From Puerhibacterium puerhi (GTDB taxonomy: Bacteria; Actinomycetota; Actinomycetes; Actinomycetales; Cellulomonadaceae), in the NCBI RefSeq assembly GCF_009846865.1, contig NZ_WUWN01000001.1, positions 62,001 to 126,000 of the forward strand: a stretch of DNA of 64,000 nt. The letters are read 5' to 3'. Positions 22,626 through 55,370 of the stretch are shown here, in pieces. Under the pieces are notes generated by a model. That model saw only the letters and a list, made by a program, of their open reading frames with translations, was not told the origin of the DNA and made no database searches. A program made the position numbers and the translations under genes. Position 1 is the first letter of the stretch. Each line of letters opens with the position of its first letter.

Positions 22626-22639
22626 GGTGTGCAGCGGCG

Positions 22640-22995: not shown

Positions 22996-23018
22996 GAGGA
23001 GGCGCGCTGCCCAGGTCG

Positions 23019-23036: not shown

Positions 23037-23093
23037 GGGTGCCCGGGGCACCGGCTACGGTGCCGCCCCGTCGACCCCCTGCGCCCGTCGACG

Positions 23094-31666: not shown

Positions 31667-31918
31667 TCAGCCGCGGCGCCGCAGGACGACCGCGTGGACC
31701 GCTCCGACGCCGAGGCCCGCCCCGGCGGCGAGCCCGACGGCCGCCCAGGTGCTCCCGGCGGTCAGCGCGCGGCCGGCCGCCCGGTACGGGTCGGCGAAGC
31801 TCCCCGTCCCGGCCCCGTGGAGCAGCACCTCGAGCGCGACGGCGACGACGAGCACGACCGCCGCGGCCGCGACCGGCCAGGCGACGAGCACGCGGCCGGG
31901 CGTGGGACCGGCGCTCAC
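31667..31918 (-). CDS. Small two-helix membrane protein
   Basis: An 83-residue protein from a GTG overlapping the stop of the upstream gene (GTGA). It is essentially two hydrophobic helices (about 10-32 and 55-80) joined by a short extracytoplasmic loop (HGAGTGSFADPYRAAGRALT), with a basic C terminus (VVLRRRG). No family recognised. Its place just before the EccC-type ATPase gene could make it a small membrane component like EssA or EsaA fragments; unproven. Confidence 0.7.
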   Translation of the reverse strand: MSAGPTPGRVLVAWPVAAAAVVLVVAVALEVLLHGAGTGSFADPYRAAGRALTAGSTWAAVGLAAGAGLGVGAVHAVVLRRRG

Positions 31919-36756: not shown

Positions 36757-38072
36757 GCTTCCCCCACCCGTGCCTCCCCCGTCGGGCTCGCCTCCCGCGC
36801 GGTCACGCGGTACTCCCCGAGGTGGATCGACGCGCCCGCCGGCACCCGCACCCGGGCGCCCGGCTCGACGACGCGCGGCGGCGCCCCGGGCGCCGAGACG
36901 ACAGTGCCGTTGGTCGAGCCGCGGTCGCTGACCCACAACCCACCGTGGTCGACGCCGAGCTCCGCGTGGGTCTTGGAGACCGACCGCCGCGGGTCGTCGA
37001 GCGGCAGCAGCGCCCAGCCGCCGTCGGCGGCCTGCGGGTCACGTCCGACGAGCGTGGGCCCGGCGACGACGTGCACCGCGCCGGTGGGCAGCTCGAGCGG
37101 CACGGGGCGCACGGGCGCCGCCGTGAGCCGCGCCCCGCCGTCGGGCACGCCGGCGGCCGCCGGGGCGGACAGCCGCGTCGCGTCCCACCCCTCCTCCTCG
37201 GGCTCCGGCTGCGCGGGCCCAAGCTGCGCGGGCCCCGGGTGCGCGGGCGTCGCGGCCGCGGCGGCAGACGGCGCGGGGGCCGGCGTCGCGGACCCGCCCG
37301 GCACGCCGGTGACGATGCCGTCCGCGGGCGGCGCCCCGACGGGGAACGCCCACGGGTCGGCCGGCGCTGCGGCAGCCGGTCGGGCGGCGGCCGGCCGGGC
37401 GGCCGCCGGGCGTGGCTCCCGGCCCGCGGCGCGCACGACGACGGACCGCGCCGCCCTGTCGTGCCAGCCCTGCAGCCGGCCGCCGGCGTCGAACAACGGG
37501 CTCAGGAGCACCAAGACCCAGCCGAGGCCGAGCACCAGGGACCCGAGGCCCACGACCAGCGAGCGCAGCACCGCGCGGCCGAACCCGATCGGCCGGCGGG
37601 AGTCCTGGTCCACCGTGCGCACGCCGAGCACGCGCCCGCCCACGGCAGCGCCCGTGCGCCCCTCCCATGCGCACAGCCCGAGCCAGAGCGCCAGGGACAG
37701 GAGCCCGGCACCGAGGTACCAGCCGGCCAGGGCGGCGAGCAGGTCGGCCGCGCCCGCCGGCGTCGTCGCCGCGGCCAGGCCGTCGCCCGTCACTGCCGTC
37801 CCGACCACGAGGACCAGCCACGGCGGCACCGACGCGGCCAGGGCGTCCAGCACCGCGACCGCGAACCGCCGGCCCACGCCGGCGAGCGGCGCCGGCGCCT
37901 CCTCGGCCGGGGGCGTCCCCCGGCGGGTGGCGGCGACGAGCTCCGGCTCCGTCGTCGTCCCGACCGGGTGCTCCGCCCCCCGCGCGGCACCGTCGCCGCG
38001 CGGCGTGCCGCAGACCGTGCAGAACGGCCCCGGCGCGGCCTGCGGCGACCCGCAGACGTCGCACACGCTCAT
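36753..38072 (-). CDS. RDD membrane protein with N-terminal zinc-ribbon and C-terminal FHA domain
   Basis: A 439-residue protein. The N terminus is a double-Cys zinc-ribbon (CDVCG ... CTVCG). An RDD-type membrane domain follows (about 65-215; GVGRRFAVAVLDALAAS, VGGRVLGVRTVDQDSRRPIGF). Next come an Ala/Pro-rich linker with a RPAAARPAAARPAAAAP repeat and a C-terminal FHA domain (LVGRDPQAAD, SVSKTHAELGVDHGGLWVSD, STNGTVV). The FHA domain could recruit phosphorylated partners to the membrane. Stop and start overlap both neighbours by 4 bp. Confidence 0.9.
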   Translation of the reverse strand: MSVCDVCGSPQAAPGPFCTVCGTPRGDGAARGAEHPVGTTTEPELVAATRRGTPPAEEAPAPLAGVGRRFAVAVLDALAASVPPWLVLVVGTAVTGDGLAAATTPAGAADLLAALAGWYLGAGLLSLALWLGLCAWEGRTGAAVGGRVLGVRTVDQDSRRPIGFGRAVLRSLVVGLGSLVLGLGWVLVLLSPLFDAGGRLQGWHDRAARSVVVRAAGREPRPAAARPAAARPAAAAPADPWAFPVGAPPADGIVTGVPGGSATPAPAPSAAAAATPAHPGPAQLGPAQPEPEEEGWDATRLSAPAAAGVPDGGARLTAAPVRPVPLELPTGAVHVVAGPTLVGRDPQAADGGWALLPLDDPRRSVSKTHAELGVDHGGLWVSDRGSTNGTVVSAPGAPPRVVEPGARVRVPAGASIHLGEYRVTAREASPTGEARVGEA

Positions 38073-40600: not shown

Positions 40601-41901
40601 GCGTCGCTCAGCCTCCGCATGGCCAGGGGCAGCTCGCCGAGGCTGCCGAGGGTGAGCACCGTCAGCTCCGCGACGGTGTCGCGGCTCATCGCCGCGCCGG
40701 GCACGCACTGCAGCGCCATGACGTGCACCTCCTGGGGCAGGCGGGCCGAGGCGGCCCGCAGCTCGCGCGCGCCGACGCCGCTGCCGACGACGAAGGCCAC
40801 GACGGACGCGTCCCCCACCGTGGCGCCAGCGACGCGTGCGACGTCGACGAGCCGGGTGCTCGAGGGCACCGCCTCGACGCGCGCGAGGTCGTCGAGCAGG
40901 CGCGTGCGGTCGTCGCCGCGCAGGCGGCCGTCGTTGACCAGCACGGTGACGCCGCGGTCCTCGCGGATCGCCTGCAGCCCCAGCGAGCCGCAGACGCTCA
41001 CGGCGAGCTCGAACTCGTCGTCGCCGGCGTAGTCCTCCGCGCGCGTGGAGAGCAGCACCGCGAGGTGGGACCGGCGGGTCTCCTCGAACTGGCGGACCAT
41101 GAGCTGGCCGGTGCGGGCGGTGGTCTTCCAGTGGATGTGCCGGCGGTCGTCGCCGGGCACGTAGTCGCGCAGGGCGTGGAACGACACGTCGGAGTTGGAG
41201 ATGTCCTGCGTGACGCGGCCCTCGAGGTCCTTGAGGAAGCCCGTCGAGGACCCGGCGAGGCTCTTGACGACCGGGTGGACGAACAGCTCCTCGCGGTCGG
41301 TCAGGCGCACCTCCCGGCGCAGCAGCCCCAGCGGGTCGGCGCGCACGGAGCGCACCGGGCCGACCGTGATGACCGAGCGGCGGCGGGTGGGGACGGTGAA
41401 GATCTCCTCGTGGGCGGCGCCGGCGGCCAGGCGCGGCACCGGGAACGCGGCGGCGCCGGTGCCGACGGGCACCTCCATGACCGACGGCAGCAGCGCCCGC
41501 GACGACTCGTTGCGCACGTCGAGACGGCCCACGGCGCGGTCGCCGACGGTGACGCGGCGCTGGGCGAGGTCGAGCCCGACGGTGTAGCGGAAGCGCCCCA
41601 GCACGAACCCGACGGCGGCGAGCAGCGCCACCGTGAGCAGCACCGCGACCACCAGCAGCTCGAGCCAGGAGAACGCCAGCCCGAGCGCCCAGGCCACCGC
41701 GGCGGCCAGCAGCACCGCCCAGCCGTAGGGGCTCACCGCCGAGGCCACCGGGCCCACGACGGGACGGGCCGCCTCGCCGACGCGCCGGGCGGCGGCGTCG
41801 ACCCGCTCCAGCGCCGGACGCACGGCCCGCCCGGCGGCGCGCCACGCGCCGCGCGCTGCCCCGCGGGCGGCGGCGGCCCGCCCGGTCCTGCCCTGCGTCA
41901 T
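40597..41901 (-). CDS. DUF58 domain protein
   Basis: A 434-residue protein. A basic N terminus (about 1-55) precedes two transmembrane helices (about 57-100), a beta-rich region, and the DUF58 domain with the signature RDYVPGDDRRHIHWKTTARTG. Residues after it (MVRQFEETRRSHLAVLLSTR) resemble a vWA-like fold. DUF58 proteins work with MoxR AAA+ ATPases, encoded next door with a 4-bp overlap, in assembling or activating other proteins; the client here may be the secretion machinery or the giant surface proteins. Confidence 0.93.
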   Translation of the reverse strand: MTQGRTGRAAAARGAARGAWRAAGRAVRPALERVDAAARRVGEAARPVVGPVASAVSPYGWAVLLAAAVAWALGLAFSWLELLVVAVLLTVALLAAVGFVLGRFRYTVGLDLAQRRVTVGDRAVGRLDVRNESSRALLPSVMEVPVGTGAAAFPVPRLAAGAAHEEIFTVPTRRRSVITVGPVRSVRADPLGLLRREVRLTDREELFVHPVVKSLAGSSTGFLKDLEGRVTQDISNSDVSFHALRDYVPGDDRRHIHWKTTARTGQLMVRQFEETRRSHLAVLLSTRAEDYAGDDEFELAVSVCGSLGLQAIREDRGVTVLVNDGRLRGDDRTRLLDDLARVEAVPSSTRLVDVARVAGATVGDASVVAFVVGSGVGARELRAASARLPQEVHVMALQCVPGAAMSRDTVAELTVLTLGSLGELPLAMRRLSDA

Positions 41902-42872
41902 GCGTGGGCCTTCTCCTGCGGGGCTGCCACGGTGGTGAGGATGCGGTCCAGCACCTGCGCCGCGGTGGCCCCCGCGAACTCGGCCTCGGGGTCGAGCGTG
42001 ATGCGGTGCGCCCACACCGGCTGGACGAGCTCCTTGACGTCGTCGGGCAGCACGTAGTTGCGCCCGTGCGCGGCAGCCCACACCTTGGCGCAGCGCACCA
42101 GCGCGAGCGCGCCGCGCACGGACACGCCGACCCGCACCTCGGGCGCCTCGCGGGTCTCCTCGGTCAGGCGCGAGACGTACTCCAGCACCGCGGGGTCCAC
42201 GTGCGTGGTCGCGGCCAGCTCGGACATCTCGACGACGGCCTGGGTGGTGACCAGCGGCTGCAGGCCCGCGCTGCGGTCGCGCACCGCGGCGCCCGAGAGG
42301 ATCTCCACCGTCGAGGCGTGGTCCGGGTAGCCGACCGACGTCTTCATGAGGAAGCGGTCGAGCTGCGCCTCGGGCAGCCGGTAGGTGCCCGCCTGCTCGA
42401 TGGGGTTCTGCGTCGCGATGACCATGAACGGGCGGCCCACCGGGTGCGGCACGCCGTCGACCGTGACCCGGCCCTCCTCCATGACCTCCAGCAGCGCCGA
42501 CTGCGTCTTCGGCGAGGCGCGGTTGATCTCGTCGGCGAGCACGATCGAGGCGAACACCGGGCCCTGGTGGAAGTCGAACCGGCCGGACTGCTGGTCGTAG
42601 ATCGTCACGCCCGTGACGTCGGACGGCAGCAGGTCCGGGGTGAACTGGATGCGGTTGTTCGTGCCGTGCACGCTCGCGGCCAGCGAGCGCGCCAGCATCG
42701 TCTTGCCGGTGCCCGGCGCGTCCTCCAGGAGCATGTGCCCCTCGGCCAGCATGCAGGTCAGCGTCAGGCGCACCACGTGCGCCTTGCCGAGGACCGCCTG
42801 GCCCACGTTGCCGACCAGCCGGTCGAAGGTCTGGGCGAACCAGGCGGCCTGCTCCGGGGTCATGGTGCTCAT
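41898..42872 (-). CDS. MoxR-family AAA+ ATPase
   Basis: A chaperone-like ATPase of 324 residues with Walker A LLEDAPGTGKTMLARSLA, Walker B VLADEINRASPKTQSALLEVM, sensor IATQNPIEQAGTYRLPEAQ and the arginine-finger region LDRFLM. It starts MSTMTPEQAA at ATG, with only 64 bp between it and the giant surface protein gene upstream. Likely acts with the DUF58 and transglutaminase-like proteins. Confidence 0.95.
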   Translation of the reverse strand: MSTMTPEQAAWFAQTFDRLVGNVGQAVLGKAHVVRLTLTCMLAEGHMLLEDAPGTGKTMLARSLAASVHGTNNRIQFTPDLLPSDVTGVTIYDQQSGRFDFHQGPVFASIVLADEINRASPKTQSALLEVMEEGRVTVDGVPHPVGRPFMVIATQNPIEQAGTYRLPEAQLDRFLMKTSVGYPDHASTVEILSGAAVRDRSAGLQPLVTTQAVVEMSELAATTHVDPAVLEYVSRLTEETREAPEVRVGVSVRGALALVRCAKVWAAAHGRNYVLPDDVKELVQPVWAHRITLDPEAEFAGATAAQVLDRILTTVAAPQEKAHA

Positions 42873-42936
42873 CGGGTCGTGTCTCTTCCTTCGTGTTCGG
42901 TCGTGGGTGGAGCAGGTGCCGGACGGGGCCCGGTCG

Positions 42937-45900
42937 TCACCAGATCATGCGGTTGGTCGTGCCGATGTCTGTCTCGATCCAGACTTCTTTGCCCTTGTAG
43001 CCGTAGTGGCACCACGCCTCCAGAGGCCCGAAGTTCCCGTTACCGTCCGTGCGCGCCACGGTGCCGTCGCGCATCCTCGTCTGCCGGCTCGTGCCGATGG
43101 CGCCGTTCGAGGCCTGGCACATGTAGCTGAACGCGGCGTTCGGCTGGGCGTCGCGGATCGTCAGGGTGAGGGAGGCGCAGGAAGGGTCCGTGCACGTGCC
43201 CGAGAAGGTGGGGCTGCCTCGGCCGACGGTGAACGACGGCTGCGGCTTCGGCGCGGTGTTGCCGTTCGCGCGGCCCCACGGCCCGCACCCGGCGGCGTTG
43301 CACGCGCGTGCCTCGAGGGTGTAGCTGCGGTCGTAGCCGGCCGGCACCCCGACGTCGAACGGGAAGCCGCCGTTCGTGCCGTTCCCGCCGGCTGAGCCGC
43401 TGTACTGCCACTGGACGCTGGTGATCGCGTTGCCGCCGTCGCTGTTGGGCCGGGTCACCGTGAAGTAGCCGCCGTTGGTCCCGCTCTGGTGCCACGTCAC
43501 GCCCGGTGAGCCCGGGGTCGTGTACGGCGTGACCGCGTTGGAGGCGCCGGACCAGTCCGAGCAGTCGTACGCGTTGCAGGCGCGCACCTGGAACGAGTGG
43601 GCGGTGCCGTTGCTCAGCCCGTCGTAGGTGTACGGCGAGGTGGCCTGCCGCGCACCGGCGCCGTCGGCCCGGACCTCGTAGAACCCGCCGGGCCCGTAGA
43701 ACGCCGAGCCGGCGATGGCGTCCCACGTGACGCGGGCCTTGCCCGACGTGTCCCCGTCGATGAGCGACGCCGCGATGCCGCCCGGCACCGCCGGCTTGCC
43801 GTACGGCACCACGGCGGCCGACTGCGGGCCGACCTCGGACCAGCCGGCCTTGTTCTGCGCCGACACCCGGAAGGCGTAGGTCGTCGCCGGGTCGAGGTCC
43901 TGGACGGTCTGCGAGGTGCCCGCCACGGTGAGCGTGCGTGCCACGCCCCCGCCGGCGAGGACCTCCAGCCGGTAGGCCGACGGCGCGTCGCCGTTGCCGT
44001 CCGGCGCGGGCCAGGAGACCTGCACCTGGCCGCCCAGGGCGGTGCTGACGCGGGTCGCGGTGGGCGCGGCCGGGGTGACCGGCACGCCGGCGGGGACCTC
44101 CTCGGCGGAGTAGTCGCCCCACTCCGACGGCTCCGGGGCGGCGTTGACCGCCTGCGCGCGCACCTTGTAGGCGACGCCGTTGGTCAGGCCCGTCCAGGTC
44201 ACCGACCCGCCCGCCAGGCAGGTCTTCTGGATGGCGCCCGAGCTCGGCGCGGGCGAGATCTCCAGGTTGACGCACTGGATCGGCGAGCGGTCCGTGTAGG
44301 TCCTGTTCGTCCACGTCACGGTGAGGCTCCGGTCGCCGAACTCGAGCGTCGGCGGCGCCGGCGGGTCGGGCCGCTCGTCGGGCCGCGCCTCCTCGGAGGC
44401 GGGCGACGGGTCGGACTCCCCCACGTCGTTGGTGGCCGTCACCGTGAACGTGTAGGTCACGTCGTTCGTCAGGCCCGTGATGGTGCACGTGGTGGTGGCG
44501 CACTCCTGCGCGTGCCCGTCGTTCGTGCGCACCGTGTACCCGGTGATCGGCGTGCCGTTGTCGGCCGGCGGGTCCCAGGTGAGCACCACGGTGCGCGACC
44601 GCACCTCCTGCACCTGCGGGGCGCGGGGCGCCTCCGGCCGGCCCAGCACGGTCACCTGCGCGCGCCCCTCGACCTGACGGTCGGGGTCGCCCGTGGCGTC
44701 CTGCACGCGGTAGCGCACCACCATGACCCCGACGAAGTCGGCGGCGGGCGTCACGACGACGTCGTCGCCCGAGATCCGGGGCGCGTCCGCGCGCCCGGTC
44801 TCGACGACCGCGGAGACGAGCTCGAGCGGCGTCTCCGGGAACGGGTTGGTGTCGTTCGCGAGCACCGGCACGGTGGTGGGCTCGCCCTGGTGGGCGTCGT
44901 CCACGCGGTCGGGGTTGGCGCGCGCGAGCGGGCGCGTCGAGGCGACGACCTCGGCCTGCACCCGGCCCGTCACGGGCGGGTTCTCGCCGTCGCGCACGCT
45001 GACGGTCACCGGCACGGCCGTCCCCCTGGGCACGCTGGCCTCCGCCTGCACGCGCAGCACGGACCCCTCGATCGCGGCGGTGATCCCGCTGCCGGCGCCG
45101 TCGACGGCGAAGACCAGGTCGTCGCCGTCCGGGTCGGTGGCCGCCCGCGACAGGTCGAGCGTGGCCTCCTCGCCGGCGGAGACCTGCAGCGTGGCGCCGA
45201 CGAACTCCGGCGGCATGTTCTGCACCGGCAGCACGGTGATCGGCTGCGTGAGCAGAGCGACGTTGCCCTCCGGGTCGTCGGGGCCGGAGCCGTCGGTCGC
45301 CTCGAACGTCACCGACGCCGGCCCGGCGTAGTCCTCGGGCGCGGTGAAGACGATCTGCTGCGGACCGGTGACCTCGGCCCTGCCCTCGACGCCCTTGACG
45401 CTGCGCTCCTCCGTGATCCGGGCCTCGCGCCCCTCGGCGACCGTGACGATCTCGGTCAGGTCGAGGGTCAGCGGCTCGCCGGCCACCACCTCGAGCGGCG
45501 GGCCGGGCGCGATGACCGGCAGCGGGCGGTTGCCGCCCGGCACGGCGGGCACGTGCACGAACGCGTGGGCCTCGAGCCCGTCGCGGTCGGTGACCGTGTA
45601 GGTGACGATCTGGCGCCGGTCCGTGACGGGCACCTCCAGCGTGCCGTCCTCGGCCACGGTGACCCGCTCGTCGTCGACCGACACGGTCAGCGCGTCGGCG
45701 GTACCGTCCGGGTCCTCGTCGTTGGCGAGCACGTCCACGCTCACGGTCGGGTTGCCGTACGCCTGCTCCAGCGTGACGACGTCGTCGCGGGCCACGGGCC
45801 GCAGCAGCGGGGCGTCGCTGCTGGTGGTCACGGTGATCGCGGCGCCGGCCCGGGCCCCGTGCGGGTCCTCGACCGTGTAGTAGAAGGCGTCGACCGCATC

Positions 45901-48900
45901 GGCCTTCGGCGTGGTGACGACGACGCGGTCGTCGACCACCTCGCCGTGCAGCTCCACCGCGCCCTCCAGCCCGTCCGCCACGAGGCTCACGAGGTCGCCG
46001 TCGGGGTCGGAGTCGTTCCGCAGCGCGGGGACCGCCACGGTGCGGTCGGGGCGCACCGTGACCTCGTCGTCGACCGGGTCCGGGGGCCGGTTGCCGTCGG
46101 CGGCGCGGGCGATGCCGACGCGGACGGTGCCGGTCGCGGTGGCGCCGCGGGCGTCCTGCACCGCGTAGGTGAAGGTGTCGGTGCCGAAGGACGTGGCACC
46201 CGCCTGGTACTCCAGGAAGCCGTCGACGATGCGGGCGGTGCCCTTGGCGGGCGCCGTGGCCACGCCGGTGAGCGTGACGGAGTCGCCGTCGGGGTCCACG
46301 CCGTCGAGCGAGAGGTCCACGCGGGCGGCGGAGCCGGCGAGCAGCCGCAGCTCGGCGTCCGGCGGCCGCGGCGCGCTGTTCTCCTCGCCCTCTCGCACGT
46401 GCACGGTGACCTGGGCGGAGTCCTTCTGGCCGTTGGGGTCGGTGACCTCGTAGACCAGGTAGGCGGTGCCGCCCTGGCTCCCGGCCTTGAACCGCACCAC
46501 GTCCTCGGCCACGAACGCCTCGCCGAGCGTGGGGTCGGGCGTCTCGCCGAGCTCGGGCGCCAGCGACAGCTCCAGGCCGTCCGGGTGCGAGTCGTTCCGC
46601 AGCACGGGGATCGTCACGACGTCGCCGGCGTGCACCGTGACCTCGTCCGGCGCGGCGTCCGGCGGCTGCAGCCGGTCCGGCGCGGGCACGGGCACGACCC
46701 GGACCTCGCCGGTGGCCGAGCGGCTGCCGTTGGAGACGGTGTAGCGGACCGTCACGGGCCCGTCGAGGCGGCGCACCTCGGTCACCCGCAGCACGTCGTG
46801 CGCGAGCACGGCCACGCTCACGCCGGCGTCCGCCGGCACGTCGACGGACTGGACCACCAGGACGCCGCCCGCGGGGTCGGTGTCGTTGGCCAGGACGTCG
46901 ACGAGCGTCGAGCCGCCGGTCGGCAGCAGCGCCTGGTCGGCCACGACCACGGGCACGCCCTCGTCCTGCGCCGGCGGCTCGGTGACGTCCACCCGCACCA
47001 GGCCGGTGGTCGCCGAGGGGCCGTCGCTCACCTGGTAGGTGACGTCGTACGAGCCGGGCTCGGTCGAGACGAAGCCGAACGTGCCGGCGTCGAGGTTCGG
47101 CGTGATCTCCGCGGGCGCGGCGTCCGCGACGCCCACCAGGCGCAGCGTGTCACCGTTGGGGTCGGTGTCGTTGCGCAGGGGCTCGACCGTGACGGGCTGG
47201 CCGGCCACCACGGTGACGTGGTCGTTGACGGCGATCGGCGGCTCCGGGGCGGCCACGACGTCCACGAGCAGGCGCCCCTCGGCCACCAGGCCAAGGCCGT
47301 CGGAGACGGTGAGGTCGACGATCTTGCGGCCGGTGGACGTGCCGGCGTCGCGCATCTCCACCGTGCCGTCCGGCCGGGAGCGCACCTCGTCGCCCGCCGC
47401 GGTGGCGTCGGCGCTCGCCAGCACGAGGTCGTCGCCGTCGGGGTCCAGGAAGTACGGCAGCACGTCGATCGACGCGGTGCCGCCCTTGGCGATCTTGAGC
47501 ACCGGCTCCCCGGTCTGCTCCGGCGCCGAGTTCTGCTGCGTCGGCGCGACCGTCAGGGTCACCTGCGCCTCGGCCACCCCGCCGCGGCCGTCGGAGACGG
47601 CGTAGCGGAACGTGGCGACCCCCTCCACGCCCTCGGCGACGACAGCCTGCAGCGCCGCGCCGCCCATGATCCGCTGCACCTCGACGCCCTCGAGCGCCGG
47701 CGGCTCGACCACCTCCGCGGTGATGACGTCGCCGTCCGGGTCGACGTCGTTGGCGAGCACCGGCAGCACCGTGGTGCGGCCGGGCCGCGCGCCCATCGCG
47801 TCGTCCTGGGGCCGCGGCGGCCGGTTGGGCTGCGTGCGGTCGGCCACGACCTGGTCGACCTGCTCCGGGGTCGTCTCCTCGGACTCGGTCTCCTCGCCCT
47901 CGGCGTCCTCGGGGATCTGCTGGTCCCAGTCGTCGACCTTCTGGTACTCCTCCGCGGCCAGCCAGACGGTGCCCGCCGACAGGTCGTTGAGCACGATGAC
48001 GTCGCGGTTGACGCGGTACTCGAGCCGGGATTCCGTGCCGAGCCCCTCGAGGGTCCGGTCGACGTCGAGGTCGGTGCCCGCGCAGTCGCGGACCACCTGG
48101 CCCGACTGGGCCCAGGCGCCGTAGCTGCACCCCCCGAGCTGCACCGGCGCGCCCGGCAGTCCGGACGCGGGGCGCACCCGCGCGTCGCCGCCGTCGAGCG
48201 GCTGGCTCACCAGGCCGGAGGTCGTGGCCACGAGGACGACGTCGGACGCCGCGGACGGCTGCTGCAGACGCGCCTCACCCGGGTCAGGGAGGTCGACGGC
48301 GTCGCCGCCGGGCAGGACGAGCCGGCCGGCCGAGCGGTCGAGCACCACCGCCTCGTCGCCGACGGCGGTGACCTCCACCTCGGCGCCGGGGGCGACGTCC
48401 AGCTCGCGCTCGCGCGGCTCCTCGGCCACCCCGTTGGCGGTGGTCGGCACCTCGACCAGCACGCCCTCGTGCGGCAGCGCGGCCAGGACGGTGCCGTCGC
48501 GCGTGACGGCGAGCGCGCCGGCGCCCTCGAACGCCCGGACCGGCTCCGTCTCCTCGGGGTCGAAGCTGGTCGCCGAGGCGAACGGCAGCACCCAGAGCTT
48601 CCCGTCCTTCGCGTCGAGGACGGCCGTCGTCGCGCCGCCCGAGGCGACCTGCGCGCCGGACGGGGCGCGCAGCGTGCCGCCGAGCTCGAGGTGCGCCGGG
48701 TCCACCGGGGAGGCCGAGGACGTTCCGGGGTCGGTGAGCAGCACGCGCTGGGCGTCCTGCTGGACGTCGAAGGTCGAGCTGCCCGCCAGCAGCGTGCCGT
48801 CGAGGGCCTGCGCCTCGGCGTTGAACCGGCCGAGGAGGCCGGCCGACGTCTTGGTGACCCACACGCCCGAGTCGTTGAGGGCGACGTCGGCCGTGGCCTC

Positions 48901-49005
48901 GCCGTCGTACGTGACCGCGGCGACCACCAGGGTCGCCGCGACCGTCACGACCGTCGTCGACGCGACGGCGCGCCGCTTCTCGCCGAGCATGCCCCTCAGG
49001 CTCAC
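42937..49005 (-). CDS. Giant Ig-like/cadherin-like and fibronectin type III surface protein A
   Basis: A 2,022-residue predicted cell-surface protein. A short basic start and one signal-anchor helix (STTVVTVAATLVVAAVTY) precede a region of about 300 residues with LNDSGVWVTKTSAGLL and repeat-like beta segments, possibly a propeller. An acidic linker (EDAEGEETESEETTPEQVDQ) follows. About eleven Ig/cadherin-like repeats with NDxDPDGD calcium-type loops run to about residue 1480. About five Fn3 domains (PADNGTPITGYTVRTND) with paired Cys come next, then a Cys-rich end closing ...NRMIW. GTG start chosen after GGGGGA; an ATG 15 bp in is possible. Probable adhesin or stalk, paralogous to the next gene. 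Confidence 0.88.
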   Translation of the reverse strand: MSLRGMLGEKRRAVASTTVVTVAATLVVAAVTYDGEATADVALNDSGVWVTKTSAGLLGRFNAEAQALDGTLLAGSSTFDVQQDAQRVLLTDPGTSSASPVDPAHLELGGTLRAPSGAQVASGGATTAVLDAKDGKLWVLPFASATSFDPEETEPVRAFEGAGALAVTRDGTVLAALPHEGVLVEVPTTANGVAEEPRERELDVAPGAEVEVTAVGDEAVVLDRSAGRLVLPGGDAVDLPDPGEARLQQPSAASDVVLVATTSGLVSQPLDGGDARVRPASGLPGAPVQLGGCSYGAWAQSGQVVRDCAGTDLDVDRTLEGLGTESRLEYRVNRDVIVLNDLSAGTVWLAAEEYQKVDDWDQQIPEDAEGEETESEETTPEQVDQVVADRTQPNRPPRPQDDAMGARPGRTTVLPVLANDVDPDGDVITAEVVEPPALEGVEVQRIMGGAALQAVVAEGVEGVATFRYAVSDGRGGVAEAQVTLTVAPTQQNSAPEQTGEPVLKIAKGGTASIDVLPYFLDPDGDDLVLASADATAAGDEVRSRPDGTVEMRDAGTSTGRKIVDLTVSDGLGLVAEGRLLVDVVAAPEPPIAVNDHVTVVAGQPVTVEPLRNDTDPNGDTLRLVGVADAAPAEITPNLDAGTFGFVSTEPGSYDVTYQVSDGPSATTGLVRVDVTEPPAQDEGVPVVVADQALLPTGGSTLVDVLANDTDPAGGVLVVQSVDVPADAGVSVAVLAHDVLRVTEVRRLDGPVTVRYTVSNGSRSATGEVRVVPVPAPDRLQPPDAAPDEVTVHAGDVVTIPVLRNDSHPDGLELSLAPELGETPDPTLGEAFVAEDVVRFKAGSQGGTAYLVYEVTDPNGQKDSAQVTVHVREGEENSAPRPPDAELRLLAGSAARVDLSLDGVDPDGDSVTLTGVATAPAKGTARIVDGFLEYQAGATSFGTDTFTYAVQDARGATATGTVRVGIARAADGNRPPDPVDDEVTVRPDRTVAVPALRNDSDPDGDLVSLVADGLEGAVELHGEVVDDRVVVTTPKADAVDAFYYTVEDPHGARAGAAITVTTSSDAPLLRPVARDDVVTLEQAYGNPTVSVDVLANDEDPDGTADALTVSVDDERVTVAEDGTLEVPVTDRRQIVTYTVTDRDGLEAHAFVHVPAVPGGNRPLPVIAPGPPLEVVAGEPLTLDLTEIVTVAEGREARITEERSVKGVEGRAEVTGPQQIVFTAPEDYAGPASVTFEATDGSGPDDPEGNVALLTQPITVLPVQNMPPEFVGATLQVSAGEEATLDLSRAATDPDGDDLVFAVDGAGSGITAAIEGSVLRVQAEASVPRGTAVPVTVSVRDGENPPVTGRVQAEVVASTRPLARANPDRVDDAHQGEPTTVPVLANDTNPFPETPLELVSAVVETGRADAPRISGDDVVVTPAADFVGVMVVRYRVQDATGDPDRQVEGRAQVTVLGRPEAPRAPQVQEVRSRTVVLTWDPPADNGTPITGYTVRTNDGHAQECATTTCTITGLTNDVTYTFTVTATNDVGESDPSPASEEARPDERPDPPAPPTLEFGDRSLTVTWTNRTYTDRSPIQCVNLEISPAPSSGAIQKTCLAGGSVTWTGLTNGVAYKVRAQAVNAAPEPSEWGDYSAEEVPAGVPVTPAAPTATRVSTALGGQVQVSWPAPDGNGDAPSAYRLEVLAGGGVARTLTVAGTSQTVQDLDPATTYAFRVSAQNKAGWSEVGPQSAAVVPYGKPAVPGGIAASLIDGDTSGKARVTWDAIAGSAFYGPGGFYEVRADGAGARQATSPYTYDGLSNGTAHSFQVRACNAYDCSDWSGASNAVTPYTTPGSPGVTWHQSGTNGGYFTVTRPNSDGGNAITSVQWQYSGSAGGNGTNGGFPFDVGVPAGYDRSYTLEARACNAAGCGPWGRANGNTAPKPQPSFTVGRGSPTFSGTCTDPSCASLTLTIRDAQPNAAFSYMCQASNGAIGTSRQTRMRDGTVARTDGNGNFGPLEAWCHYGYKGKEVWIETDIGTTNRMIW

Positions 49006-49078
49006 GAATGTCCCCCGTGCCCTCGTGGGGCGTCCCTTCCCCCGGTGCGGCGCCGCCCTGCCACGTCGCGCCGGGACG

Positions 49079-49084
49079 AGGATA
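49079..49084 (-). promoter_or_regulatory. Possible -10 of the surface protein A promoter
   Basis: TATCCT on the minus strand, 32 bp past the inner edge of the palindrome, about one helical turn further than at the other two copies. Confidence 0.3.
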
Positions 49085-49109
49085 GCCGGAGGCCTGCGGC
49101 GCGTCTCGT

Positions 49110-49141
49110 CCGGGGGATGGGGAGCGCTCCCCATCCCCCGG
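49110..49141. promoter_or_regulatory. Locus-specific palindrome, copy 3 (within a 32-bp perfect palindrome)
   Basis: ATGGGGA-GCGC-TCCCCAT at 49117-49134 lies at the centre of a perfect 32-bp, gapless palindrome (CCGGGGGATGGGGAGC and its complement). It lies 105 bp upstream of surface protein A and 27 bp after the stop of surface protein B. A regulator site is favoured because the core recurs; a terminator for protein B is the alternative. Confidence 0.6.
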
Positions 49142-49167
49142 ACGCGGTCACCGGCCGCCTGTCCCGG

Positions 49168-52100
49168 TCACCACGGTGCGTGGTTGGACTCGCCCCAGGC
49201 CGGGCTCGTCGCCACGATCCAGGTGGACTCGCCGACGTAGGTGTGCTGGCACGTGAGGTCCCCGGAGAAGCTGCCGTTGCCGTCCGTGCGGAACGTGTAC
49301 GGGCCCGCGTACTGCCGCGGCGACTCCGCCCTGCCCCAGTAGTCGTCGGTGGTCCAGCACGTGTAGGTCACCGTGGTGCTCGGCGTGCCGTTGCGCAGCT
49401 CCAGGTGCAGGTAGTGGCAGTCCTGCACGTCCGGGCCGTAGGTCTCCGTGTAGCAGCCGTCGTCCGCCGTGCCCTTGTCGCTGCTCGCGCCCTTGGTGAT
49501 GGTCATCGTGCGCGTGGCCGGGTCGGGGTCCGTGCGGCCCGAGGCGGACTGCGACGGCCCGCAGCCGGCAGCGTTGCACGCCCGCGCCTCGAGGGTGTAC
49601 GTCGTCGCCCACGCGGGCCCGACGTCGACGGTCCCGCCGGTGCGCTGCCAGCCGCCGCCGTTGAGGCGGTACTCGAGCCGGTCGACGCTCTCGCCGCCGT
49701 CGCCGCCCGCGCGCACGGTGAACCGGCCGGTCTGCTCGCCGGTCCGCGAGTAGCTGACGCCCGGGCGGTCCGGCGTGGTGTACGGCGTCGCCGCGTTCGT
49801 GTCCGCGGCGGGACCGCACCTGTACTGGTTGCACGCCCGCACCTGGAACGTGTAGCGCGTGCCGTTGCTCAGCCCCGTGTACACGAACCTGCCGGAGTCG
49901 GTGGTGGCCTGGTCGCCCGTCTTCCACTCCCCGCCCGCGGTACGCACCTGGTAGTACCCGTCCGGCCCGCGCAGGTCCGCGGCGGCCAGCCGCGACCAGG
50001 AGACGATCACGCGCCCCGACGGCGTCGCCGGGTCGACCGCGGCGCTCGCCCCCGTCGGCGTGGCCGGCGTGCCGTAGGGCACGACGGCGGCCGACGCCGG
50101 GGAGGCCGGCGAGCGTCCGGCCTTGTTCTCGGCGACCACGACGAACGCGTAGGACGCGCCCGGGTCGAGGTCGCGCGCCTCGAACGTCGTGCCGGTGACG
50201 GTGTCCGTGGCGATCGACTGCCCGTCCCGCACCGTCGTGACGTGGTAGCGCGTGGGGCCGTCGCCGTTGCCGTCCGGCGCGCTCCAGGTCACCTGGGCGA
50301 CGCCGCCGAGGGCGGTGTCGGTGCGCGTCGCCCTCGGGGCGCCCGGCCGCTCCGGCGGGCCTGCCGGCACCATCGGGGCGGACGGCACGCTCCAGTCCGA
50401 CGGGTCGGGCGCGCCGTTGACGGCCTGCACCCGCACCGTGTACGCCACGCCGTTGGTCAGGCCGCTCCACGTCGTCGACGTGCCGGTGACGCACGGCTTC
50501 TGGATCGCCCCCGACGGGGGCGCCGGGGAGATCTCGAGGTTCACGCACTCGATCGGCGACCGGTCGGAGTACGTACGGTTCGTCCACGACACGGCGAGCG
50601 ACCCGTCGCCGAACTCGAGGGTCGGCGCGTCGGGCTGGTCAGGGCGCTGGTCCGGGCGGGCCTCCGGCGACGCCGGCGAGGCGTCGGAGTCCCCGACGTC
50701 GTTCGTCGCCGTCACGGTGAACGTGTAGGTCACGTCGTTCGTCAGCCCGGTGACGGTGCACGTGGTGCTCGCGCAGTCCTGGGTGCGGCCGTCGTTCGCG
50801 CGGACCGTGTAGCCGGTGATCGGCGCGCCGTTGTCCGCCGGCGGGTCCCAGGTGAGCACGACCGTCTGCGAGCGGACCTCCTGGACCTGCGGGGCGCGCG
50901 GCGTCTCCGGCCGGCCGAGCACGGTCACCTGGACGCGGCCCTCGACCTCGCGCTCCGGGTCGCCGGTCGCGTCCTGGACCCGGTAGCGCGCCACGAGCAC
51001 GCCGACGAAGTCGTCGGCCGGGGTGACCACGAGCTCGTCCCCGTCGACGGCGACCGTGCCGGCGCCGGTCTCGCACGCGGCGCCGACCAGGACGAGGTCC
51101 TCGTCGGGGAAGGGGTTCGAGTCGTTGCGCAGCACGGGCACGCTCACCGGCTCGCCCTGGTGGGCGTCCTCGACGACGTCGTCGGTGGCGCGCACGAGCG
51201 GGCGGGTGGACCCCACCACGGTGACGGCGACCCGGCCCTCAACGGGCGGGTGGTCCGCGTCGGCGACGCTGACGGGCACGGAGATCTCGCTGCCCCGCGG
51301 CAGCGACGCGTCCGCCCGCACGGTGACCCGCGTGCCCTGGACGCTCGTCGACAGCCCGTCGACGCTCCCGGCGACGCGCACCGTGACCGGGTCGCCGTCG
51401 GGGTCGTCGACGAAGCGGGCCACGTCGACCCCGGCCTCCTCGCCCGCGGCCACCTCGACCGCCGGCGTGCCCGTGAGCTCAGGCGGCAGGTTCTCGGCGG
51501 CCACCACGGTGATCGGCACCGAGAGCGTCGCGACGCGCGCGTCGGGATCGTCCTGGCCCGTCGCGTCGCTCACCTCGAAGCTCACGGAGGCGGCCCCCAC
51601 GAAGTCGTCGGCCGACGTGAACACCACCGTCGTGGCGTCCTGGACCTCTCGCTGCCCCGAGACCGCGGTGACCCGGTCCTCGGCCGTGAGCCGCGGCCGA
51701 CGGCCCTCGGCGACGACGACGAGCTCGGTCAGGTCGAGCGTGAGCGGCTCGCCGCTGACCACCTCGAGCGGCGGCAGCGGGGAGCGCAGCCGCGGCCCCT
51801 GCCCGTCGCGCGGCACCCGCAGGAAGGCGCGGGCGGTCTGGCCGTCCACGTCCGTGACCGTGTAGGTGAGCACCTGCGGGCTGCCGGTGAGCGGCACCGT
51901 CACGGCGCCGTCGTCGGCCACCGTGACGCCCGCCTCCTCGGCGGCCGCGTCGACGCTCACCTCGAGCTGGGACGCCACGCCGTCCGGGTCGGAGTCGTTG
52001 CGCAGCACGTCGACCGTGACGGTGTCGCCGTCCACCGAGCCCTGCGGCACCACGTCGTCGCGCGCGACCGGGCGCAGCAGCGGCGCGTCGGGGTCGACCT

Positions 52101-55100
52101 CCACCGTGACCGCCCCCGTGGCGCGGGCCGCGTAGGTGTCCTCGACGCCGTAGTAGAAGGTGTGGACGCCCGCCTCGCCCGGCGTCGTCATCCGCACGAC
52201 GCCGTCCACGACCTCCGCCTCGAGCGGCTCGCCACCCTCGAGGGAGCCGGGCACCAGGCCGATCGGGTCGCCGTCCGGGTCGGAGTCGTTGGCTGCGGCG
52301 TCGACCGCGACGGCGCGGCCCGGGCGCACGTGCGTGCCGTCGTCGACCGCCACCGGCGGCTGGTTGGTGGTCGCCGTCGGCGCGATGCCCACGCGCACGG
52401 TCCCGACGGCGGACGCACCGCGGGTGTCCGTGACGCGGTAGCCGAACGTGTCGACGCCGACGGCGTCGGCGGCCGCCGTGTACTGCAGCGCGCCGTCGAC
52501 GATCTCGACGGTGCCCTTGGTGGGGGCGGTCGCCACCGCGTCGAGCGTCACGAGGTCGCCGTCGGGGTCGGTGCCCTCGAGCGGCGGGACGACCTGGACC
52601 GTGCCGCCGGACAGCACGCGCGCCTCGACGTCGGGCAGCTGCGGCGCGGCGTTCTCCGGCGTGTCGACGACCCGGATCGTCACCTGCGCCGAGTCGCGCT
52701 GCCCGCGGGCGTCCGTGACCTCGTAGACCGCGTAGGCGACGCCGGCCTCGCCGCCCGCCTTGAAGCGCACCGTGTCCTCGGCGACGAACGCCTCGCCCAG
52801 GCCCGGGTCCGGCTCCTCGACGAGCTCGGGCACCACGCTCAGCTCGAGGCCGTCGGGGTGGGAGTCGTTCGCCAGCACCGGCACGGTGACCACGTCGCCC
52901 GTGTGCACGGTGATCTCGTCCGGCGCGGCGTCCGGCGGGCGCAGCCGCTCGGGCGCCGGGATGGGCACCACCTGCAGCTGGCCCGTGCTCGTCGCGGCCC
53001 CGTTGGAGACCGTGTAGGTCACGGTGACCGGCGACGCGAGGCGGCGGGTCTCCGTCACCCGCAGCACCTGGTGGGCGAGGACCGCGACGGTCACGCCGGC
53101 GTCCTGGGGCACCTCGACGGACTGCACCACGAGCACCCCGCCGGTGGGGTCGGTGTCGTTGGCCAGCACGTCCACGAGCGCGGAGCCGCCGGCGGGCAGC
53201 AGCACCTGGTCGGCGACCGCCACCGGGGGGCTGGCCTGCTCCGGCGGCGCCACCACGTCGACGCGCACCAGGCCGGTCGAGGCGCTCGGGCCGTCGCTCA
53301 CCTGGTAGGTCAGGTCGTAGCTGCCGGGCTCGGCGCTGGTGAACCGGAACGTGCCCGCCGTGTAGTTGGGGGCGACCTCCGCCGGTGCCTGCTCGGCGAC
53401 GTTCACGAGGCGCAGCAGGTCGCCGTTCGGGTCGGAGTCGTTCTCCAGCGGCTCCACGGTGACGGCCTGCCCCGCGACGACGGTGACGTGGTCGTTGACG
53501 GGGACCGGCGGCTCCGCGGCGGCGACGACGTCGACGAGCAGCGTGCCCTCGACCACCATGCCCCGCTCGTCGGCCACGGTGAGCGCCACGGTCTTGCGCC
53601 CGGCCGACCTGCCGGCGTCGCGCAGCTCGACGGTGCCGTCGGGTCGCGACCGGACCTCGTCGCGCGCCACCGTCGCGGCCGCGCTGGCGAGCACGAGGTC
53701 GTCGCCGTCGGGGTCCCGGAAGTACGGCAGCACGTCGATCTCGGCAGTGCCGCCCTTGGCGACCTTGAGCACCGGCTCGCCGGTCTGCTCCGGCGGGGAG
53801 CCCTCCTCGTCGGGGACCACCCGGACCGTCGCCCTCGCGTCGGCCGTCCCGCCGCGCCCGTCGGACACCGTGTAGGTGAGGGTGAACGTGCCCTCGGTCC
53901 CCCGCGGCACGTCGGCCTGCAGCGCGGCGCCGCCGAGGACCGGGCTCACCCCGAGGCCGCGGGCCGGCCGTGCCACCGACGCCGTGAGCACGTCGCCGTC
54001 CGGGTCGACGTCGTTGGCGAGCACGTCCAGCACGGTGGTGCGCCCGGCGCGCACGCCGATCTCGTCGTCCTTCGGCTGGGGCGGGCGGTTGGGCCGGCTG
54101 CGGTCGGCGACGAACTGGTCGACCTGCTCCGGCGTCGTCTCCTCGGACTCCGTCTCCTCGCCCTCGGCGTCCTCGGGCATCACGAGGTCCCAGTCGTCGA
54201 CCTTCTGGAAGGAGTCGGCGGCCATCCACACCGTGCCGGCCGCCAGGTCGTTGAGCACGATGGCGTCGCGGTTGACGCGGTACTCCAGCCGCGACTGCGG
54301 CCCGAGGCCCTCGAGCGCGCGGTCCACGTCGTGGTCGGCGCCCGCGCAGTCCCGGACCACCTGGCCGGTCTGCGACCACGCACCGTAGGAGCAGCCGCCG
54401 AGCTGGACCGGCGCCGCCGGCAGGCCGGAGGCGTGCCGCACGAGCGCGTCGCCGCCGCCCAGCGGTTGGCTGACCAGGCCGGAGGTCGTGGCCACGAGGA
54501 CCTGGTCCGCCGCCGCCGAGGGCTGCTGGAGCCGGGCCTCGCCCGGGTCCTGCACCTCGACGGCGTCGCCGCCGGGCAGCAGCAGCCGGCCGGCGGACCG
54601 GTCGAGCACGACCGGGTCGTCGCCCACGGCGGTCACCTCGACCTCGGCACCGGGCGCGACGTCCAGGGCCGACGTCGCGGGGTCCCGGGGCGTGCCGTTG
54701 ACAGTGGTGGGCACGGTGACCAGGCGCCCGGCGGCGGTGTCGACGGCCAGCACGGTGCCGTCGCGCGCGACCGTGACGGCAGCGGCCTGCTCGAGCTCGG
54801 CGACGGGGTCCACCTCGTCGGGGTCGAAGGCGGCGACGCCGTCGAACGGCAGGACCCACAGCCGCCCGTCCTCGGTGTCGAGCACGGCGGCGGTGGCCGC
54901 CGCGGAGGCGACCACCGACCCGGCCGGCGCGCGCAGGGTGCCGCCCAGCTCCAGGTGCGCGGGGTCCACGGGGGCGGCGTTGGCGCCGTCGGTCTGCAGG
55001 ACCCGCTGGGCGTCCTGCTGGACGTCGAACGTGGAGCTGCCGGCGAGGATCGTGCCGTCGAGGGCCTGCGACTCGGTGTTGAACCGGCCGAGCAGGCCGG

Positions 55101-55248
55101 CGGACGTCTTCGTCACCCACACGCCCGAGTCGTTGAGGTCGACGTCGGCGGTGGCCTCCCCCTCGGAGACGACGGCGAGCGTCACCACCGTCGCCGCCAG
55201 CACGCTGACGACGGCGGCCGAGGCGGTCGTCCGCCGTCCGCGCGTCAT
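49168..55248 (-). CDS. Giant Ig-like/cadherin-like and fibronectin type III surface protein B
   Basis: A 2,026-residue paralogue of surface protein A with the same layout: N-terminal signal-anchor (ASAAVVSVLAATVVTLAVV), shared segments such as LNDSGVWVTKTSAGLL and QLGGCSYGAW, the same acidic linker, NDxDPDGD repeats and Fn3 domains. Only the C-terminal ~130 residues differ strongly (ending ...SNHAPW). Domain count and length are nearly identical, so they arose by tandem duplication. ATG chosen; a GTG at 55253 after GGGGGC is possible. No copy of the locus palindrome precedes it; TATGCT at 55333-55338 may be its -10. Confidence 0.88.
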   Translation of the reverse strand: MTRGRRTTASAAVVSVLAATVVTLAVVSEGEATADVDLNDSGVWVTKTSAGLLGRFNTESQALDGTILAGSSTFDVQQDAQRVLQTDGANAAPVDPAHLELGGTLRAPAGSVVASAAATAAVLDTEDGRLWVLPFDGVAAFDPDEVDPVAELEQAAAVTVARDGTVLAVDTAAGRLVTVPTTVNGTPRDPATSALDVAPGAEVEVTAVGDDPVVLDRSAGRLLLPGGDAVEVQDPGEARLQQPSAAADQVLVATTSGLVSQPLGGGDALVRHASGLPAAPVQLGGCSYGAWSQTGQVVRDCAGADHDVDRALEGLGPQSRLEYRVNRDAIVLNDLAAGTVWMAADSFQKVDDWDLVMPEDAEGEETESEETTPEQVDQFVADRSRPNRPPQPKDDEIGVRAGRTTVLDVLANDVDPDGDVLTASVARPARGLGVSPVLGGAALQADVPRGTEGTFTLTYTVSDGRGGTADARATVRVVPDEEGSPPEQTGEPVLKVAKGGTAEIDVLPYFRDPDGDDLVLASAAATVARDEVRSRPDGTVELRDAGRSAGRKTVALTVADERGMVVEGTLLVDVVAAAEPPVPVNDHVTVVAGQAVTVEPLENDSDPNGDLLRLVNVAEQAPAEVAPNYTAGTFRFTSAEPGSYDLTYQVSDGPSASTGLVRVDVVAPPEQASPPVAVADQVLLPAGGSALVDVLANDTDPTGGVLVVQSVEVPQDAGVTVAVLAHQVLRVTETRRLASPVTVTYTVSNGAATSTGQLQVVPIPAPERLRPPDAAPDEITVHTGDVVTVPVLANDSHPDGLELSVVPELVEEPDPGLGEAFVAEDTVRFKAGGEAGVAYAVYEVTDARGQRDSAQVTIRVVDTPENAAPQLPDVEARVLSGGTVQVVPPLEGTDPDGDLVTLDAVATAPTKGTVEIVDGALQYTAAADAVGVDTFGYRVTDTRGASAVGTVRVGIAPTATTNQPPVAVDDGTHVRPGRAVAVDAAANDSDPDGDPIGLVPGSLEGGEPLEAEVVDGVVRMTTPGEAGVHTFYYGVEDTYAARATGAVTVEVDPDAPLLRPVARDDVVPQGSVDGDTVTVDVLRNDSDPDGVASQLEVSVDAAAEEAGVTVADDGAVTVPLTGSPQVLTYTVTDVDGQTARAFLRVPRDGQGPRLRSPLPPLEVVSGEPLTLDLTELVVVAEGRRPRLTAEDRVTAVSGQREVQDATTVVFTSADDFVGAASVSFEVSDATGQDDPDARVATLSVPITVVAAENLPPELTGTPAVEVAAGEEAGVDVARFVDDPDGDPVTVRVAGSVDGLSTSVQGTRVTVRADASLPRGSEISVPVSVADADHPPVEGRVAVTVVGSTRPLVRATDDVVEDAHQGEPVSVPVLRNDSNPFPDEDLVLVGAACETGAGTVAVDGDELVVTPADDFVGVLVARYRVQDATGDPEREVEGRVQVTVLGRPETPRAPQVQEVRSQTVVLTWDPPADNGAPITGYTVRANDGRTQDCASTTCTVTGLTNDVTYTFTVTATNDVGDSDASPASPEARPDQRPDQPDAPTLEFGDGSLAVSWTNRTYSDRSPIECVNLEISPAPPSGAIQKPCVTGTSTTWSGLTNGVAYTVRVQAVNGAPDPSDWSVPSAPMVPAGPPERPGAPRATRTDTALGGVAQVTWSAPDGNGDGPTRYHVTTVRDGQSIATDTVTGTTFEARDLDPGASYAFVVVAENKAGRSPASPASAAVVPYGTPATPTGASAAVDPATPSGRVIVSWSRLAAADLRGPDGYYQVRTAGGEWKTGDQATTDSGRFVYTGLSNGTRYTFQVRACNQYRCGPAADTNAATPYTTPDRPGVSYSRTGEQTGRFTVRAGGDGGESVDRLEYRLNGGGWQRTGGTVDVGPAWATTYTLEARACNAAGCGPSQSASGRTDPDPATRTMTITKGASSDKGTADDGCYTETYGPDVQDCHYLHLELRNGTPSTTVTYTCWTTDDYWGRAESPRQYAGPYTFRTDGNGSFSGDLTCQHTYVGESTWIVATSPAWGESNHAPW

Positions 55249-55370
55249 CCTCACGCTGCCCCCTGGCTCCTGGTCGCGACGCCGGCCATCCCCCCGGCCG
55301 GGCGTGCTGCCCCGGCTCCGGCTCGCGCCCGCAGCATACCGACGCCGCCGCGCACGGCGCGCAGGCGGAG

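Follow-up and report, generated by a model that had tools for sequence, protein, structure and literature searches.

Tandem genes for putative long surface stalks in Puerhibacterium puerhi: a PFNA-like cluster with seemingly replaceable tips and a palindrome shared with type VII secretion genes

A 64,000-nucleotide stretch of the Puerhibacterium puerhi draft genome (3.9 Mb; contig NZ_WUWN01000001.1, positions 62,001 to 126,000), hereafter the window, was analysed around two very large neighbouring genes, copy A (49168-55254) and copy B (42937-49005), each encoding an immunoglobulin (Ig)-like/fibronectin surface protein termed a stalk here. Positions are those of the window, and the genes and protein segments given with coordinates in it lie on its minus strand. 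The nearest named relative found was Isoptericola variabilis (92% identity in the N-terminal module). Copy A starts at GTG 55254, ATG 55248 being its third codon, and encodes 2,028 amino acids (aa); the MoxR-proximal copy B starts at GTG 49005 and encodes 2,022 aa. An upstream start of copy B at ATG 49134, giving a 2,065-aa open reading frame (ORF), was rejected as an over-call: this ATG lies inside a perfect 19-bp inverted repeat, and GTG 49005 aligns with relatives. The coding signal was strong (GC content at third codon positions of 0.96-0.98 in the listed ORFs), both reading frames were free of stops, and a whole-genome search with copy B returned matches at the places of copies A and B only.

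Pfam searches assigned 11 Big_9 and three fn3 domains to copy B, ten and four to copy A, and several Cadherin_4/5 stretches to both; with tandem Big_9 and fn3 domains over the Pfam cut-off, both products were classed as multidomain surface proteins. The domain order, observed directly, is the same in each copy: a membrane helix at the N-terminus is followed by a beta-propeller, then by 10-11 Big_9 and several fibronectin III domains, and the protein closes with a Trp-ended tip of ~110 residues. By hydropathy alone, one N-terminal hydrophobic helix was found per copy and no second one in either. Six NDxDPxG-type motifs, putatively of the calcium type, occur in each protein. The membrane-proximal module of copy B (residues 38-397; 47815-48894), a propeller with a low-confidence linker, was modelled by AlphaFold with a mean predicted local distance difference test score (pLDDT) of 85, and its top structural match was the propeller of cytochrome cd1 (Z 21.6, root mean square deviation 3.8, 308 residues aligned); the best structural matches suggest eight blades. 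The corresponding module of copy A (54064-55143) is 77% identical.

Between the two copies, identity per 100 residues was 60-86% over residues 1-800, 45-65% over 800-1400 and 78-80% over 1400-1600, after which it fell from 58% to 27% at the C-terminal end. Protein length was nearly fixed, at 1,991-2,047 aa across 54 full-length proteins, both copies included; this set leaves out three more distant rows (L070, L071 and L072) and one cut protein. Trp stood at the exact C-terminus in 41 of the 54 and among the last four residues in all 54, at a Trp frequency of 1%. In L070 the Trp lies five residues from the end, and L071 and L072 have neither Trp nor tip, so that 54 of 57 rows share the pattern when the distant ones are counted. 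Several claims of a preliminary description of this locus were thereby confirmed: two genes of ~2,025 residues with Ig-like and fibronectin domains (coding signal, stop-free frames, Pfam domains), a single N-terminal anchor in each (hydropathy), divergence of the last ~130 residues, and Trp at both C-termini, which proved common to the family.

Following copy B, the operon continues with genes for a MoxR AAA+ ATPase (41898-42872; AAA_3, E 6e-62), a DUF58 protein (40597-41901), a TgpA_N/transglutaminase-core membrane protein (38069-40666), an RDD protein with a forkhead-associated (FHA) domain (36753-38072), a PP2C phosphatase (35938-36762), a further FHA protein (34223-35884), a Ser/Thr protein kinase (32676-34283; Pkinase, E 3e-38), the small protein FHA3 (31915-32679) and an EssC/EccC-like type VII secretion system (T7SS) ATPase with FHA and FtsK/SpoIIIE domains (27086-31555). 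Except for FHA3, these were assigned by Pfam. Among models of secretion ATPases, the best for the last gene product was TIGR03928 (E 7e-157, 524 bits against a cut-off of 778), the EccCa and EccCb models likewise staying under their cut-offs; a ubiquitin-like start of this ATPase, suspected by eye, gave no match on search. Beyond it lie genes for a 102-aa ESX-like protein without a Pfam family (26660-26968), a candidate substrate of the T7SS_signal type (25221-26645; 1.3e-5, just under the cut-off) and a WXG100 protein (22640-22936; 7.6e-16). The locus thus contains both an EccC/EssC-type FtsK/SpoIIIE ATPase and a WXG100 protein, by which a type VII locus is recognised. The linkage to a secretion ATPase and a MoxR/DUF58 module had been proposed before, and these genes were indeed found. 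Upstream of the stalks, a polyprenyl synthase-like gene and genes of respiratory complex I were identified by eye.

The cluster resembles the PFNA cluster of bifidobacteria, for which the order pkb2 kinase, fn3, MoxR-type aaa-atp, duf58 and tgm is described, with prpC and fha in some species (PMC6803598, PMC8430577, PMC10688814). The order fn3, MoxR, DUF58 and transglutaminase is present here, kinase, PP2C and FHA genes occur too, and the FN3 protein is homologous, with the same N-terminal propeller profile and a length of ~1,800-2,200 aa in one family of the order with ~2-Mb genomes (f66). This family, probably the Bifidobacteriaceae, was listed with 11 genomes carrying the N-terminal module (E 8e-24 to 2e-57). 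An fn3-MoxR fusion, reported for B. breve in the same papers, was also found in L169. In PFNA, however, pkb2 stands first, directly before fn3, whereas the kinase gene of the window lies downstream, and because of this position the present cluster is called PFNA-like and not PFNA; the kinase was upstream of the stalk in L071, L072, L167, L169 and L173. Further differences are the one to three tandem fn3 copies, another tip domain and the continuation of the operon into the T7SS. Type VII secretion is mentioned nowhere in the available text of PMC6803598 and PMC8430577. The linkage had been called unusual in the preliminary description; this holds for the T7SS part, which is absent from these two papers, and not for MoxR, DUF58 and transglutaminase genes beside an fn3 gene, which are the known PFNA arrangement.

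Conservation of the cluster was observed directly. MoxR followed the last stalk copy in 28 of 35 loci fetched from the family; in one the contig ends, and the remaining six (L044, L046, L059, L061, L064 and L066) are additional stalk loci that lack the MoxR cluster. At the order level, MoxR was present in 15 of 20 fetched loci. Of the 150 genomes from the family, 132 carried the N-terminal module; at the level of the order it was detected in 101 of 198 genomes, representing 36 of 73 sampled genera. Judged by this module, the PFNA-like cluster, until now treated as a bifidobacterial host-interaction trait, thus extends beyond bifidobacteria. This runs counter to printed statements: PMC6803598 says that no orthologues were found in organisms other than bifidobacteria, and PMC10688814 describes PFNA as 'found only in Bifidobacterium'. 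That the moxR operon of mycobacteria resembles PFNA has been pointed out (PMC12067865).

For the link to secretion, 50 stalk-bearing genomes were chosen by hand, relatedness being handled only by a count by genus and state. In 28 of them a strong T7SS ATPase match (E = 0) lay within ~30 kb of the stalk, as counted by hand from printed coordinates. The other 22 comprised five with a strong ATPase elsewhere and 17 with weaker matches only, and such weaker matches lay within ~20 kb of the stalk in at least G098, G374, G425 and G567, judged by coordinates only.

A palindrome, ATGGGGA-N4-TCCCCAT, connects copy B with the secretion genes. The window holds three, against 0.03 expected. The first, ATGGGGA-GCGC-TCCCCAT (49117-49134), lies upstream of copy B within a perfect 19-bp inverted repeat without spacer (49107-49144), which might also serve as the terminator of copy A; a TATCCT hexamer follows 32 nt on. 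The second (27033-27050) is placed behind the T7SS ATPase gene and before the gene of the ESX-like protein, with TAGCTT 22 nt on, and the third (23019-23036) precedes the WXG100 gene, with TACTGT 23 nt on. Copy A has no such site upstream. Allowing one mismatch, four palindromes were found in the genome and none with the reversed control. The fourth (L179, contig C67, 66065-66082) precedes a gene for an XPB-type helicase and has a second gene diverging from it; it shows no TAnnnT hexamer at the usual spacing and is possibly a chance site.

Exact sites were present in 27 of the 50 chosen genomes (74 sites in total; none with the reversed control), namely in 26 of 32 genomes with a strong T7SS ATPase and in one of 18 without; in 22 of the 32, a site lay within 200 bp behind the strong ATPase gene. 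Upstream of stalk genes, the palindrome was found with at most three mismatches in 14 positions at 36 of 57 genes, nine times exactly, compared with one of 228 control windows inside genes. Among 17 multi-copy loci it stood at the last copy in 15 (the others being L043 and L038, where the third copy is cut off) and at the first copy in five (L036, L043, L049, L050 and L055).

The palindrome and its spacing to a -10-like hexamer were observed directly; the hexamers are consensus matches rather than mapped transcription starts, and site distances were counted by hand. On the stalk side, the distance to a TAnnnT-type hexamer was 32-34 nt at 24 of the 36 sites, 41-44 nt at six and 21-23 nt at four, with no hexamer at two; these counts are without a shuffle control, and the distances differ by steps of about one helical turn. 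On the T7SS side, represented by 29 exact sites (two in the window and 27 in L180-L200), the strict TAnnnT pattern was found at 22 or 23 nt in 19, against at most 4 in 1,000 shuffles (30 sequences, copy B included). Widening the pattern to TTGA[GC]T and ATAGT, a choice made after looking, raised this to 28 of 29. ORFs of ~90-110 aa follow 26 of the 29 sites; ten of ten downstream proteins compared with Pfam matched WXG100-type models (E 0.0005 or better), three of them over the cut-off. Those downstream of the sites in four relatives (L181, L185, L194 and L196) resemble the 102-aa ESX-like protein of the window, and that of L200 does so more weakly. Among the sites not linked to these loci, 20 of 35 were inspected, of which eight precede WXG100- or T7SS-signal-like genes (L201, L208, L209, L210, L212, L214, L215 and L219; the last two recognised only by their WxG motif).

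With this distribution, the palindrome has the look of a site where a regulator, activating or repressing, would bind to control a T7SS regulon that includes copy B, and copy B is probably co-regulated with the T7SS. A LacI-type (CebR/CelR-like) operator was considered for the site at copy B and dropped on finding that the centre of the palindrome is not kept. A search of the open-licence literature found no description of the palindrome. In two genomes of a Cellulosimicrobium genus (g7), sites with TAnnnT at 32-33 nt precede genes that do not look like T7SS genes (L204, L205, L206 and L207), coding for a membrane protein and a protein starting VTDVNAPDPQ; these genes are possibly further regulon members.

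FHA3, of 254 residues, is a candidate for the regulator. Its gene adjoins the ATPase or the stalk operon; by eye, its N-terminal half is FHA-like and its C-terminal half the most conserved part. No meaningful match was obtained in Pfam or NCBIfam, and PDB matches were at E 0.1-0.8 only. Exact palindromes were found in 27 of 34 genomes with FHA3, seven being without one, and in none of 16 genomes without FHA3 (Fisher 5e-8; by genus and state 1.6e-4), a correlation that makes FHA3 a candidate for binding the palindrome. EspM, a regulator of ESX-1 encoded next to a T7SS, with an FHA-type N-terminus and a DNA-binding helix-turn-helix part at the C-terminus (PMC7002343), was taken as a working model for FHA3; M. 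marinum EspM is longer, with at least 363 residues, and FHA3 has no family match.

The tip domain lies at 42940-43269 in copy B (last ~110 aa) and at 49171-49535 in copy A. For 49 of the 54 tips no consistent Pfam match was obtained, and the best PDB sequence match was at E 0.3. Alignment showed a pair of Cys, together with the Trp at the C-terminus, to be strictly kept in 49 of these 54 tips. The last fn3 domain together with the tip was modelled as a confident beta domain (mean pLDDT 94). A fold search with this model gave fibronectin III rows on top, which mostly cover the fn3 part and say little on the tip alone. Mean column identity was 26% for the tip, compared with 67% for the propeller module (43 rows).

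In the close pair of copy B and its I. variabilis orthologue (L056), block-wise divergence of the tip was observed directly: protein identity is 91% for the body and 87% for the fn3 region but drops to 38% for the tip. Per 50 nt, DNA identity was 76-92% down to ~43,256, fell to 53-68% over an island reaching to 42,906 (42906-43255), was 84% in the next window and rose to 92-98% beyond, in the MoxR gene; counted from the end of the stalk gene, it was 71% over the first 100 nt downstream and 93-98% thereafter. Synonymous divergence (pS) was 0.18-0.24 in the body; over the three 40-residue windows that close the protein it was 0.56, 0.33 and 0.60. A clade of the copy B and I. variabilis tips was rejected by the approximately unbiased (AU) test (p-AU 0.00057). 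The tip of copy B grouped instead with those of second copies of Isoptericola loci L041 and L049 (Shimodaira-Hasegawa-like approximate likelihood ratio test 90), a group named after inspection of the tip tree, and the same grouping of propellers was rejected (p-AU 7e-24). In a second pair, L059 and L061 of the Cellulosimicrobium genus, bodies are 96% and tips 36% identical, while other pairs with 90-93% identical bodies keep their tips (76-97%) or are intermediate (43-58%). Over 1,431 pairs, which are not independent, body identity correlated with tip identity at r 0.40 and with that of the fn3 region at r 0.68. The tip therefore appears to behave as a replaceable cassette, and the simplest reading of these comparisons is a constant rod with an exchangeable end.

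Further observations were made on stalk ends. Bodies in the extra loci without MoxR are up to 90-91% identical to a main-locus copy, with different tips, and within one genome (L058/L059) the body is 90% and the tip 24% identical. In other families of the order the ends vary more: the tip profile matched 6 of 30 proteins (L070-L072 included), in three of the six with the printed stretch away from the C-terminus. Stalks of another family (L157, L158, L163 and L164) carry at their ends a domain quite unlike the tip, rich in Tyr and Trp and, by eye, similar to SH3. Domains resembling these tips occur, presumably, on actinobacterial kinases; searches of the own genome and of the phylum did not show it. 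A widespread use of the tip within the own genome was rejected, as only the two stalks matched (E 0.01), and in a phylum sample a tip match was found in 6 of 245 other genomes, with at most 18 candidates scored per genome. In two of these six, distant members of the phylum (L122 and L123), the Trp-ended tip is the sole domain, preceded by a long linker, of short ORFs that by eye resemble lipoproteins.

As to the origin of the pair, a tree of the body (residues 60-1400) placed copy B with I. variabilis, and copy A beside two genus g9 genomes (support 100); a clade of copy A, copy B and the I. variabilis orthologue was rejected (p-AU 0.00026). A recent or simple tandem duplication was rejected by this tree and test, so that the view of the genes as paralogues from local duplication, proposed in the preliminary description, did not hold. 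Independent acquisition, there named as the contrary outcome, is supported in part: the pair appears to be old paralogues or to include an imported copy. In I. variabilis the polyprenyl synthase gene is directly followed by the copy-B orthologue, the one stalk match in that draft genome (91% complete). Copy A may be an old paralogue lost in I. variabilis or a later arrival. Two or three stalk copies ~6-8 kb apart were present in at least 18 of the 132 genomes.

The explanation that is rated somewhat above an even chance, taken as a whole, is that both copies belong to a PFNA-like cluster as long stalks serving recognition at the cell surface and that copy B is co-regulated with the T7SS. The helix would hold each stalk in the membrane with the beta-propeller adjacent, and the Ig and fibronectin domains would form a rod of nearly fixed length, by domain count long enough to cross the wall. 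The exchangeable C-terminal domain, presumed to be exposed at the far end, would set what is bound. Judged by their families, the MoxR, DUF58 and transglutaminase proteins probably mature or fix the stalks, and the kinase, PP2C and FHA proteins may gate the system. Through the putative shared operator, the copy B stalk would be made together with secretion substrates; the simplest purpose would be to let cells with a T7SS make contact or recognise a target. Long, N-anchored stalks with different tips had been suggested before, and this gains support from a tip that differs in a close orthologue while body and downstream DNA are nearly identical, and from the confident beta model of the end. 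The kind of protein is known, being the FN3 protein of PFNA; new are tandem stalks with seemingly exchangeable tips, tied by a palindrome to the T7SS.

Several findings weigh against this explanation. As 22 of the 50 stalk-bearing genomes, the bifidobacteria-like family included, have no strong ATPase beside the stalk, the stalk does not need one. Three genomes (G103, G469 and G547) have exact palindromes, none of them at a T7SS ATPase or stalk; 21 of the 57 stalk genes, copy A among them, are without a palindrome at three mismatches or fewer; and at 12 of the 20 unlinked sites inspected the next gene is not recognisably of T7SS type. Concerning the tip, intermediate pairs exist (body 90%, tip 43-58%), a clade of the L059 and L061 tips was not rejected (AU p 0.41), and L071 and L072, from the same family, have no such tip. 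Between copy B and its orthologue, divergence is up before the tip already (residues 1741-1900: pS 0.30-0.41, identity 68-90%) and is noisy within it, because of which fast divergence retains part of the probability; strong diversifying selection likewise keeps some weight as an alternative to tip exchange.

Instead of being a separate adhesin, the stalk could also be a structural part of the T7SS that spans the envelope as a conduit or docking tower, like EsaA or TsdI, although this is considered unlikely. EsaA/YueB of T7SSb is a polytopic membrane protein not known to have Ig/FN3 rods. What it has in common with the stalks is a long portion outside the cell and a tie to a T7SS locus (as cited in PMC11217815). 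In T7SSd, reported for Bifidobacterium too, the Ig-like TsdI of 1,654 aa has a signal peptide and a C-terminal membrane helix, and an EsaA-like role was proposed for it (Garrett, Higginson and Palmer 2024, PMC11217815). Both the present locus and T7SSd bring together, in an actinobacterium, genes for an FHA-bearing EssC-type ATPase, a WXG100 protein, a Ser/Thr kinase and an Ig-like envelope protein of very large size; the palindrome common to stalk and WXG100-type genes and the ATPases near the stalk, strong within ~30 kb in 28 of 50 genomes and weaker within ~20 kb in at least the four named above, fit a structural part as well. The stalks, however, were not classed as TsdI, with which they were compared by description only: their helix is N-terminal and adjoins a propeller, and their C-terminal tip is free, where TsdI has its helix at the C-terminus. 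The five genomes with a strong ATPase elsewhere and the 17 with weaker matches only also argue against a structural part, as do extra copies without MoxR in 6 of 35 loci. The available text of PMC11217815 makes no mention of MoxR, DUF58, transglutaminase or fibronectin, and that of the Actinotignum T7SS paper (PMC5720513) none of MoxR or fibronectin.

Doubtful to a similar degree is a role as an envelope sensor or element of wall architecture, in which the propeller end would talk to the kinase and FHA proteins, the rod would report the state of the wall, tips would follow wall or capsule chemistry and co-regulation with the T7SS would be an envelope-stress response. A kinase, a PP2C phosphatase and three Pfam-FHA proteins (the ATPase included) in the operon, and a propeller much more conserved than the tip, are what such a sensor would lead one to expect, but block-like divergence of tips within one domain type fits a recognition end better, and according to PMC10688814 and PMC6803598 the FN3 protein of B. 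longum reportedly binds TNF-alpha and the fn3 product has a part in adhesion. Another possibility, that instead of being an operator the palindrome terminates transcription downstream of copy A and of the ATPase gene, is quite improbable: it forms a strong hairpin a few tens of bases past the stop codons, but its arms are kept while its centre varies, the hexamer distance is kept with steps near one helical turn, it also precedes unlinked T7SS-like genes, and no T-run follows it within the window.

Returning to recognition stalks under T7SS co-regulation, a more specific and speculative version, thought rather unlikely to hold in full, is that FHA3, controlled by the kinase, switches the T7SS regulon at the palindrome, yielding substrates together with matching stalks, that swappable tips choose the partner cell or surface, and that tandem copies widen the choice. 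The findings bear on two questions, what is built by MoxR/DUF58/transglutaminase modules and how non-mycobacterial actinobacterial T7SSs are regulated and directed at their targets. If the rod is indeed constant and its tips replaceable, it would be a natural scaffold for the display of binding domains.

Around the T7SS_signal and WXG100 genes of the window, four ORFs of 345, 275, 217 and 208 aa without a Pfam match were noted (21549-25194), which by their position are candidate T7SS substrates or partners.

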